A DNA stretch of 33,850 nucleotides from Paracoccaceae bacterium. Lineage in GTDB: Bacteria > Pseudomonadota > Alphaproteobacteria > Rhodobacterales > Rhodobacteraceae. The position numbers and the translations under genes were made by a program. The stretch spans positions 1 to 33,850 of the forward strand of contig SPJP01000027.1 in the NCBI GenBank assembly GCA_006844665.1. Direction: 5' to 3'. Every line of letters begins with the position of its first letter. Positions within the stretch are counted from its first letter, which is position 1. Of the stretch, positions 12,830 through 24,087 are shown one piece after another. The notes under the pieces were generated by a model that saw only the letters and a list, made by a program, of their open reading frames with translations, did no database searches and was not told the DNA's origin.

Positions 12830-14230
12830 CTACAGAACCCGCAGCTTGGGGCTCGATTTCGGCGCGATCATCGCCGCTTGCAGCGCCCAAACCAAAGCAT
12901 CCACCCGGTCAGGCGACCCCTGGCCCTGAAAGCCCTGCACCGTCATGCGACACATCTGGTCTTCCAATGCTGCGAACCGTTTTGTGTGATGCACCCGGCC
13001 TTGTTCATACAAGGCTGCAATCGGTTCGGCCCGGGCGCTTTTGCCCGTGTTGGCCCGCACTTTGGTCACCGGCAAAGCCCCGTCCACTTGGCGCAAGACC
13101 TCCTCAACCAGATCGCCGCCCTGGTTCACTTCCGCGACCACACGGTCAGCACCCCAACGCGCGTAAACCCGCACCACTTGCTCGGCCCACGCCCGGGGCG
13201 AGACACCCTGGACCGTTGCGTCCTCTAGCACAAAGGCCTGCCAGTCCCGCCGCTCGGGCCCGTAACAGACCCCGGCGACCACGATCCCGCAGGCATCGCT
13301 GTTCTTGTGCCCGGTCACCGGCGGGTCAACCGCAACCACAACCCTGTCAAATTCCGGCAACGCCTTCACGCGCCCTGCATCCAGCACCGCGTTCGTCCAC
13401 AGCGCGCCGCCCACGTCCTCTAACAACTCGCCGTCCAATTCCTGCCGCCCAAGGCTTGTGCCCTCGTACCGCGCGCGCACCTCCGCCAGAAACGAGGCCG
13501 CCAGATAGGCCGCATTCGCCTCGGTCGCCGCATGGGTCATCACGGTAGAGCTTTGCTGGATCAGCGATTTAATCAACGGGATCGGTTGGGGCGTTGTCGT
13601 CACCACCTGCTGGGGATTATCTCCAAGCCTCAGGGCAAATTGCAACATGTCCCAAGCGTCCTGGGCATTCGGCCACTTGGCCAGCTCGTCCACCCAGGCC
13701 GCATCGAACTGCGGGCCCCGTATCGCTTGCGCGTCGCGGCCCGAAAAAACTTGTGCCACCGCCCCGTTCGGCCAGATCAGCTGACGACGCGACGCGACCC
13801 AGGTCGGCTTGCGGTCTGGCGGTGTGATTGCCAGCAGACCGCTTTCGCCAAACACCATCACCTCGCGTGCCTGGTCATAGGTTTCCCCGACCAAGGCGAC
13901 CCGGTGGGCCCGGCCTGGATCCAAAGGGCCAGCGCCCTCGACCTGCGACCGGACCCACTCTGCACCAGCGCGGGTCTTGCCCGCACCGCGCCCCCCAAGG
14001 ATCACCCAACTGCGCCAATCCCCTTCTGGTGGCATCTGGTGTTCAAACGCCCAGACCTCCCACAGATAGGGCAAGGCCGCCAAAGCATTGGGGCTTAGCC
14101 CATCAAGAAACTCCTGAACCTCCTGCGGCGCCGCGCAGGCAAGCCAACCGGCACTCAATTTCAGCCCGGGCTCCGTCAAGGTCCAGCGCCTGTCCTCCGG
14201 CTGCACCGTTAAGTTTTCTGCTGAGGTCAT
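12830..14230 (-). CDS. GTA terminase large subunit (g2)
   Basis: Walker A WVILGGRGAGKTRAGAEWVR; nuclease region VVAVDPPVTGHKNSDACGIVV; first ~43 codons overlap g1 in another frame. Confidence 0.94.
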   Translation of the reverse strand: MTSAENLTVQPEDRRWTLTEPGLKLSAGWLACAAPQEVQEFLDGLSPNALAALPYLWEVWAFEHQMPPEGDWRSWVILGGRGAGKTRAGAEWVRSQVEGAGPLDPGRAHRVALVGETYDQAREVMVFGESGLLAITPPDRKPTWVASRRQLIWPNGAVAQVFSGRDAQAIRGPQFDAAWVDELAKWPNAQDAWDMLQFALRLGDNPQQVVTTTPQPIPLIKSLIQQSSTVMTHAATEANAAYLAASFLAEVRARYEGTSLGRQELDGELLEDVGGALWTNAVLDAGRVKALPEFDRVVVAVDPPVTGHKNSDACGIVVAGVCYGPERRDWQAFVLEDATVQGVSPRAWAEQVVRVYARWGADRVVAEVNQGGDLVEEVLRQVDGALPVTKVRANTGKSARAEPIAALYEQGRVHHTKRFAALEDQMCRMTVQGFQGQGSPDRVDALVWALQAAMIAPKSSPKLRVL

Positions 14231-14444
14231 TCAGTTTGTCTCCCTCTTTCAGAAGTAACACCTGCATAGAACGCATCTCGTCGATGCGCTTTTTCACGCT
14301 CGCGTCCAGCTCGTTGCTGGCCTCTAGCGCGTCTGCGGCCCCGTCCAGGGCGTCATACAAGTGGTCTAAGATCTTCTCGGCGCGTTGCACCGTCTGTCCC
14401 GAGTGCCGGTCTGGCGTGTCGTTTAGGACTGGGTTTTCTGTCAT
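14103..14444 (-). CDS. GTA terminase small-subunit-like protein (g1)
   Basis: Internal start MTENPVLNDTPDRHSGQTVQRAEKILDHLYDALDGAADALEASNELDASVKKRIDEMRSMQVLLLKEGDKLNDLSRKLN; coiled-coil-like, immediately upstream of TerL. Confidence 0.82.
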   Translation of the reverse strand: MTENPVLNDTPDRHSGQTVQRAEKILDHLYDALDGAADALEASNELDASVKKRIDEMRSMQVLLLKEGDKLNDLSRKLNGAAGGQALDLDGARAEIECRLACLRGAAGGSGVS

Positions 14445-14490
14445 ACGGAAGTCCTGCCTTTGGCTTTTCCGCACGAGAGCAGCAGGCATA

Positions 14491-14528
14491 AAAAAACGAC
14501 CGAGGCCATAATGACCCGGTCGTTTTTT
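14491..14528 (-). terminator. Intrinsic-terminator-like hairpin between mltG and GTA g1 (symmetrical)
   Basis: 12-bp perfect stem AAAAAACGACCG/CGGTCGTTTTTT (14491-14502 / 14517-14528); followed on the minus strand by a U-tract of 7. Confidence 0.8.
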
Positions 14529-14553
14529 GCCCACTTCTTCTAGCTTGCCACAA

Positions 14554-14582
14554 GGTATACCTCAGGGCGTACGCATTGTCAA
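14554..14582 (-). promoter_or_regulatory. Consensus sigma70-type promoter upstream of the GTA cluster
   Basis: Minus strand TTGACA (14582-14577), 17-nt spacer, TATACC (14559-14554); 50 nt past the mltG stop. Confidence 0.65.
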
Positions 14583-14631: not shown

Positions 14632-15780
14632 TCAGTTGCGATCCCGCTCGATCTGGCGCCACTTGGCCACGTTCGCATTATGCTCGGCCAAGGTCACCGC
14701 AAAGGCGTGCCCACCCGTCCCATCAGCCACAAAGAAGATATAGGGTGTCTCGTCAGGGCTCAGCGCCGCTTCAATCGCCTTACGACCCGGATTGGCAATT
14801 GGAGTCGGCGGCAAAGCATCGATTACATAGGTATTCCAAGGCGTTGGACGACGAAGCTCTGACCGACGCAGACCACGACCCAAACGACCCTGACCATTGG
14901 TAATGCCATAAATCACTGTCGGGTCCGTTTGCAGGCGAATACCCCGGCGCAATCGGTTCACAAACACGCTGGCCACCTGTCCACGTTCGTCCGCAACACT
15001 GGTTTCCTTTTCGATGATCGACGCCATGATCAGCGCCTCTTCCGGCGTGTCATAAGGCAGGTCGTCATCCTTCAACGCCCAAGCTTCGGCCAAAATGAAC
15101 TCCTGCGCATCAGACATACGACGAATCACATCTTCCCGAGTCGCCCCCTTCGTCACCTCATAGGTGTCGGGCGCCAGCGAGCCTTCGGCCGGGGTTTCTT
15201 CCGGCACATCGCCCGACAAGAAATCCGCCCGCTTCAACGCTTCAACAATGTTCCAGCTGGTCACACCTTCGGCAATGGTCAGACGGTAGGCGACCGGAAT
15301 ATTGCGTTCCACAAGGTCGGTATATTCCTCCGGCGCGCCCTCTTCATATTTAAAGGACACAACTTCAGTCAGACCTTCGCCCGCGATCCGTTCCCGTAGC
15401 CGCATCTCAGACCCGAACTCGCTGATCGTATATTGGGCGATGTAACGGTAGGTCGGCGCGGCAGCTTGGGTCACAATATCCAAAATCTGCTGCATAGAGG
15501 CACCGGCAGGCAGCTCGTAATTGTTGAACTTCAGTTCATTCGCCTTGCCCGAATACTGCGCTCCGATCCGAAAGATCCGCGCATTGGTGACCGCGCCCGC
15601 CTCTTCCAGATCATTTGACACCCTAATCAAGCTGGCCCCACGGGGCACCTCAAAAAAAGTGGTCTGTTCTAGGGGCCCGATTTTGCGGAACTCGTTCTGG
15701 CCCCAGCTGATCATGCCAATTCCCATGATCAAAACAACAATCCCCAACGTCATCGCGTTCGAGGCGAAATTCTTCCACAT
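14632..15780 (-). CDS. mltG: Endolytic transglycosylase MltG (YceG-like)
   Basis: EEALIMASIIEKETSVADERGQVASVFVNRLRRGIRLQTDPTVIYG...: MltG catalytic region; N-terminal TM. Confidence 0.96.
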   Translation of the reverse strand: MWKNFASNAMTLGIVVLIMGIGMISWGQNEFRKIGPLEQTTFFEVPRGASLIRVSNDLEEAGAVTNARIFRIGAQYSGKANELKFNNYELPAGASMQQILDIVTQAAAPTYRYIAQYTISEFGSEMRLRERIAGEGLTEVVSFKYEEGAPEEYTDLVERNIPVAYRLTIAEGVTSWNIVEALKRADFLSGDVPEETPAEGSLAPDTYEVTKGATREDVIRRMSDAQEFILAEAWALKDDDLPYDTPEEALIMASIIEKETSVADERGQVASVFVNRLRRGIRLQTDPTVIYGITNGQGRLGRGLRRSELRRPTPWNTYVIDALPPTPIANPGRKAIEAALSPDETPYIFFVADGTGGHAFAVTLAEHNANVAKWRQIERDRN

Positions 15781-24001: not shown

Positions 24002-24087
24002 TGGTGCGGGTGAAGGGACTCGAACCCCCACGCCTTGCGGCGCCAGAACCTAAATCTGGTGCGTCTACCAATTCCGCCACACCCGCA
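24002..24087 (-). tRNA. tRNA-Leu (anticodon UAG)
   Basis: Minus strand TGCGGGTGTGGCGGAATTGGTAGACGC-ACCAGATTTAGGTTCTGGC-...-GGTTCGAGTCCC-TTC-ACCCGCA-CCA; 7-bp acceptor stem, loop TTTAGGT, encoded CCA. Confidence 0.96.

Follow-up and report, generated by a model that had tools for sequence, protein, structure and literature searches.

A conserved leader with a predicted promoter-proximal terminator precedes RcGTA-type gene transfer agent clusters in Rhodobacteraceae and probably forms a GafA-dependent gate

Antitermination in phages and gene transfer agents

Several described systems place a terminator between a promoter and the genes that it serves and rely on a dedicated protein to carry RNA polymerase across. 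In the PR'-tR' regions of phages lambda and 21, which are served by Q proteins, the QBE lies between the -35 and -10 elements, a -10-like pause element is found in the initial transcribed region, and a terminator precedes the late genes (PMC6606751, PMC7171158). The AlpA system of Pseudomonas aeruginosa, used in a subset of cells that lyse, has a GGGACG motif between -35 and -10 (PMC7969949, PMC9371919). Its promoter contains an essential -10-like sequence, CACGAT, at positions -1 to +5 (PMC9371919), and an intrinsic terminator is located before the first gene (AlpA/alpB).

Among gene transfer agents (GTAs), the closest case is CcGTA of Caulobacter crescentus, whose regulators belong to the same family as GafA of Rhodobacter capsulatus (GafA = GafY + GafZ, DUF6456). 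The GafA homologue GafZ has its only genomic target at the main cluster promoter, where it binds between -35 and -10, and it lets polymerase pass a terminator; Tran and Le suggested that GafA might have an unrecognised antitermination activity (PMC11150451). BaGTA of Bartonella, by the title of that work a chimeric GTA of diverse phage origin, is also cited as using antitermination (Korotaev et al. 2025, cited in PMC13236601).

In R. capsulatus, GafA is required for GTA expression. It bound one 50-bp probe, located 76-125 bp upstream of g1 and containing the -10 element and the start site (Fogg 2019, PMC6363796); its C-terminal domain bound the same probe (Sherlock and Fogg 2022, PMC9638019). 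Binding to the -10/start region is accompanied by contact with the omega subunit (PMC9638019). How GafA switches on the RcGTA cluster is unsettled, antitermination having previously only been suggested (PMC11150451). Neither GafA paper uses the word "terminator" in its main text (PMC6363796, PMC9638019), and "antiterminat" and "anti-terminat" are absent from that of PMC9638019. Literature searches covering open-licence papers found no report of the leader analysed here, so that in these papers a leader-terminator layer of the best-studied GTA is undescribed.

Organization of the leader

The window is the whole 33,850-nucleotide stretch of contig SPJP01000027.1 (Paracoccaceae bacterium, assembly GCA_006844665.1). 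Its genes include mltG (YceG), g1, and those for the terminase, portal, prohead protease, and capsid, assigned with Pfam; g1 itself has no Pfam hit. The only Rfam match in the window is a tRNA gene on the minus strand (24005-24086). Direct reading of the minus strand gives the order mltG, TTGACA-N17-TATACC, a box in the initial transcribed region, a hairpin with seven T residues, and g1, as follows:

14632..15780, minus strand: mltG (YceG family), the gene upstream of the leader; Pfam PF02618, E=3.5e-79; stop codon at 14634-14632
14577..14582, minus strand: -35 element TTGACA, read from the sequence
14565..14574, minus strand: spacer motif GCGTACGCCC (family form CGnACGnTC), recognised by spacer conservation and present in the GafA-bound R. 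capsulatus 50-bp probe
14554..14559, minus strand: -10 element TATACC, last base degenerate across the family, preceded by a conserved G at 14560
14542..14547, minus strand: CAAGCT, resembling a -10 element; candidate sigma-dependent pause site, approximately -1 to +5
14527..14547, minus strand: initial-transcribed box CAAGCTAGAAGAAGTGGGCAA, 21 nt, assigned by family match
14491..14528, minus strand: predicted intrinsic terminator hairpin of the leader, from sequence, fold, score, and covariation
14490..14496, minus strand: T tract, seven T, read from the sequence
14103..14444, minus strand: g1 of the RcGTA-type cluster, ATG at 14444, 113 aa, similar to g1 of relatives
12830..14230, minus strand: g2, large terminase; Pfam PF03237 and PF17289

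The TTGACA hexamer begins 49 nt past the mltG stop, and g1 starts 45 nt beyond the T tract. The promoter-like sequence is found at 14582-14554, just past mltG, where a preliminary description of this DNA had placed it. That description called it a consensus promoter, which holds for the -35 element but not for the -10 element, which is degenerate and has no T at its last position. For this reason, a simple consensus promoter scan does not list TTGACA-N17-TATACC. The same scan lists no promoter-like pair between the hairpin and g1, in agreement with the earlier reading of that gap. The position of the -10 element predicts an RNA start at A14546.

The G+C-rich hairpin is formed by a 5' arm, AAAAAACGACCG (14528-14517), and a 3' arm, CGGTCGTTTTTT (14502-14491), and its stem is extended by an inner GGTC/GGCC helix. 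The predicted RNA fold of 14550-14444 has an energy of -43.9 kcal/mol (z = -3.7), and none of 200 shuffled sequences was as stable. Together with a value of +32 on our own terminator score, reading and fold bear out the 12-bp stem and seven T residues originally reported before g1. Terminator-like sites inside the GTA cluster occur at chance level.

Conservation in the family

A search for the g2 protein covered 150 family genomes, close to one for each genus, and gave matches in 136. From about 110 of these, the sequence upstream of g2 was extracted, which yielded 108 usable leaders (locus L086 was left out, as it had no match). The RcGTA portal sequence (PDB 6tba) served to find named genomes that contributed another 79 leaders, R. 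capsulatus DSM 1710 (L113) among them. Leaders were scanned for intrinsic terminators with a hairpin-plus-U score, and terminators were counted from box+15 to box+85.

These leaders share an architecture consisting of TTGAC (exact in 67 of the 77 genera with the box), a 17-nt spacer (73/77) with CGnACGnTC, a -10 element GTAtA, a gap of 5-6 nt, the box, and the hairpin. The family form of the box is CANGCTRGAAGAARTGGGCAA; 77 of 108 genera match it at 14 or more of its 21 positions. It is the sole site with 0 mismatches in this genome, and likewise in R. capsulatus. The promoter pattern also occurs once in each of these two genomes, at the cluster only.

Among leaders with a recognised box, a terminator is found at the same place in 64 of 76 genera (one genome each) versus 1.1 expected from dinucleotide shuffles, and in 73 of 74 named relatives versus 2.7 expected; the reverse-strand control gives 6 of 77. 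With no box filter, 76 of all 108 family leaders show a terminator as far upstream of g2 as expected. The co-occurrence of promoter and hairpin in relatives, proposed earlier as a check on this leader, is thus seen throughout the family. The hairpin starts 19-25 nt, usually 21-22 nt, past the box start. Covariation supports the structure: 87.4% of the alignment cells are paired, and there are 40 two-sided changes compared to 13.4 in shuffles, none of 500 shuffles being as high. Slid structures fare far worse than the true hairpin. In alignment A1, three T-tract columns are at least 90% conserved.

The candidate pause element was retested on leaders anchored by the promoter alone, with the box excluded from the choice, because the box had earlier served to select leaders. 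All 66 such leaders have xAxxxT, a hexamer whose second base is A and whose sixth is T, located 5 or 6 nt after the -10 element, compared to a background of 7% elsewhere. By sequence, CANGCT is compatible with a -10-like sigma-dependent pause element, in the position that such an element has in the Pseudomonas AlpA system.

Twelve leaders from genomes with strong GafA have no scored terminator at the expected place, one of them in a cut-off contig; the terminator is therefore not indispensable. A subgroup of these leaders keeps the CATGCTGG box and lacks the T tract. Loci L042, L046, L066, L078, and L092, with GafA kept and no scored leader terminator, form a group with which the model could naturally be compared.

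When 290 genomes of the class were scanned with model R1 of the leader, only weak matches (21-27 bits) lay outside the family. In some other alphaproteobacterial families (loci L237, L238, L240, L248, and L249), terminators with different sequences lie 20-60 nt ahead of the first GTA gene; L248 and L249 have a common spacer motif, CGTCACGCT.

Many relatives contain a second small stem-loop, CTCGTGC-GGAnn-GCATGAG-AGGC, between the T tract and g1. The corresponding interval here is 14489-14445, and the 3' arm is absent from this window.

GafA and comparison with known systems

The genome under study encodes a GafZ-type (DUF6456) regulator, GafA (contig C65; DUF6456, 205 bits, with weak N-terminal HTH matches). 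DUF6456 is found in 138 of the 150 family genomes, and the GafA score correlates with the box match (rho 0.63, uncorrected for phylogeny). In R. capsulatus DSM 1710, the GafA probe corresponds to CATTGCGGACGCTCTAAGGTAGAAATAAGCCATGCTAGGAGAGGTGGGCA, by our own count from the ATG rather than from the figure in the papers. It covers the spacer motif, the -10 element, and the box, ending at the hairpin start. In R. capsulatus, transcription from the published start site begins ahead of the hairpin (PMC6363796), so that the RNA must cross the terminator before any GTA gene, as originally proposed for this locus.

The leader has the parts of a Q/AlpA-type arrangement: a promoter of the sigma-70 type whose -35 and -10 flank a conserved element, a putative -10-like element where the transcribed region begins, and a predicted intrinsic terminator between promoter and first gene. 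CANGCT lies at about -1 to +5, as does CACGAT in the AlpA promoter, and CGnACG in the spacer resembles GGGACG, shifted by 1 nt in our count (PMC7969949, PMC9371919). However, the latter likeness may be coincidental: GafZ has no sequence or structural similarity to AlpA (Tran and Le, PMC11150451), and the exact AlpA motif, GGGACG-N5-GGTA, is absent from all 108 leaders. The lambda and phage 21 systems likewise differ in that Q proteins have no known homology to GafA (PMC11150451); the candidate pause element of the present leader is recognised by its sequence.

CcGTA shares with this locus the regulator family, an element in the -35/-10 spacer of the main cluster promoter, a single target, and a terminator to cross. 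In CcGTA, however, the tested terminator follows the first gene and involves three 150-bp repeats, whereas here a short predicted intrinsic terminator precedes g1. The -35 element is degenerate there and near consensus here, and the palindromic ZBE, GCGCCCG-CTGGCGC, is unlike the spacer motif and box in sequence. It is absent from the spacer, which here reads ATGCGTACGCCCTGAGG (CGnACGnTC in the family). This motif is a candidate GafA/GafZ loading element between -35 and -10.

A probable gate and its alternatives

This leader is probably a promoter-proximal gate of the Q/AlpA kind, at which GafA loads at the promoter and carries polymerase through the leader terminator. RNA polymerase with a housekeeping sigma factor would start at about 14546 and may pause at the -10-like CAAGCT while GafA, on the spacer and box, loads. 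In the absence of GafA, most transcripts would stop at about +50, at the leader terminator; with GafA, polymerase would pass it and the cluster would be transcribed. GafA probably has a second role in initiation, like GafY in Caulobacter, given that the -10 element is degenerate and lacks T at its last position family-wide. The same feature means that initiation itself may be the main control. Three steps of this model are inferred: termination at the hairpin in vivo, a polymerase pause at CANGCT, and GafA-mediated read-through at this locus. One observation that counts against a gate comes from phage RDJL Phi 1, which carries a GafA-like protein and in which no such leader was found.

A terminator after the promoter of its own operon makes sense mainly if something lets polymerase through. 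Insulation offers another account, in which the terminator passively lowers leak, GafA solely boosts initiation, and natural read-through suffices. GafA binding at the -10/start region with its omega contact (PMC9638019), the degenerate -10 element, and the absence of the terminator in some relatives are all compatible with it. We regard insulation as unlikely, however, because it leaves unexplained both the invariant -10-like element with the post-start box and the demonstrated antiterminator role of the GafZ homologue (PMC11150451). The preliminary description raised attenuation as a possibility. A strong terminator within a 5' leader would suit attenuation in the classical sense, by a leader peptide, a riboswitch, or another ligand-sensing RNA. 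Yet only about 20 nt separate the predicted start from the hairpin, too short for an open reading frame or an aptamer, and Rfam, with the tRNA as its sole match, finds no known RNA at the leader. Leader peptide and riboswitch were rejected on this ground, and such a mechanism appears exceedingly improbable; protein-mediated processive antitermination is the better reading.

The hairpin might instead simply end the upstream fabF-mltG transcript, with GTA transcription starting downstream of it or ignoring it. In favor of this proposal, mltG has no other terminator in this window, and in the one-per-genus set a separate mltG terminator is present in only 9 of 58 leaders with adjacent mltG. Nevertheless, such a terminator is found in R. 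capsulatus, Thioclava, and others (19 of 32 named leaders with adjacent mltG). In R. capsulatus, AAAACCCCGGCTGGGCCCGGGGTTTTT directly follows the mltG stop and the leader terminator, GCGCAACGGGAAACCGTTTGCGCTTTTTT, lies further on. The distance of the hairpin is fixed relative to the promoter and box and not to mltG, the mltG-to-box interval spanning 55 to 439 nt. With separate mltG terminators in relatives and this spacing, the hairpin is not merely an mltG terminator, and that earlier alternative fails as a general explanation. A GTA promoter between hairpin and g1, suggested along with it, finds no candidate in the consensus scan and is at odds with the published R. capsulatus start, which already contradicts a role of the hairpin as mltG terminator only (PMC6363796). 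This explanation was rejected and seems quite improbable for the family, but the hairpin may serve both the mltG and the leader transcripts here, where mltG has no other terminator. A role of the hairpin in stabilizing or processing the GTA mRNA, rather than in termination, would be in line with the second stem-loop that follows in many relatives. However, a stability hairpin would not need the conserved T tract directly after the stem, which makes this role highly improbable.

For RcGTA-family clusters at large, we lean toward the view that they are held off by the leader terminator and that GafA combines Q-like processive antitermination with promoter activation. Under the gate reading, cells that are not making GTA should contain a terminated leader RNA about 50 nt long. 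The conserved terminator, the pause-like element, and the spacer motif in the GafA footprint come together in one testable leader of about 100 bp. If the reading is true, GTA production in Rhodobacteraceae is gated at elongation, which would bear on why few cells express GTA and on descent from a phage late-gene switch, of which the leader gate may be a retained form.

Phage-related sequences and g2 variants

The GafA-like protein of phage RDJL Phi 1 matches R. capsulatus GafA in BLASTP (E=2e-10) and is encoded next to a ctrA homologue (gp37). Relatives of this protein are found in RDJL Phi 2, RDJL6, and perhaps vB_DshS-R4C. MW462191.1 ("Bacteriophage sp."; loci L250 and L251), the best "phage" match for the terminase and GafZ, contains a GTA cluster, cellular genes, and, next to a sulfur acceptor gene, gafY- and gafZ-like sequences as two separate genes. 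As this record appears to be a bacterial contig, it was rejected as phage evidence.

In about 10 family genomes (e.g., G071:C8, G138:C5, and G044:C11), the g2 terminase match ends near residue 183-184, inside open frames that are mostly 830-880 aa long, suggesting that these frames contain an inserted domain such as an intein.
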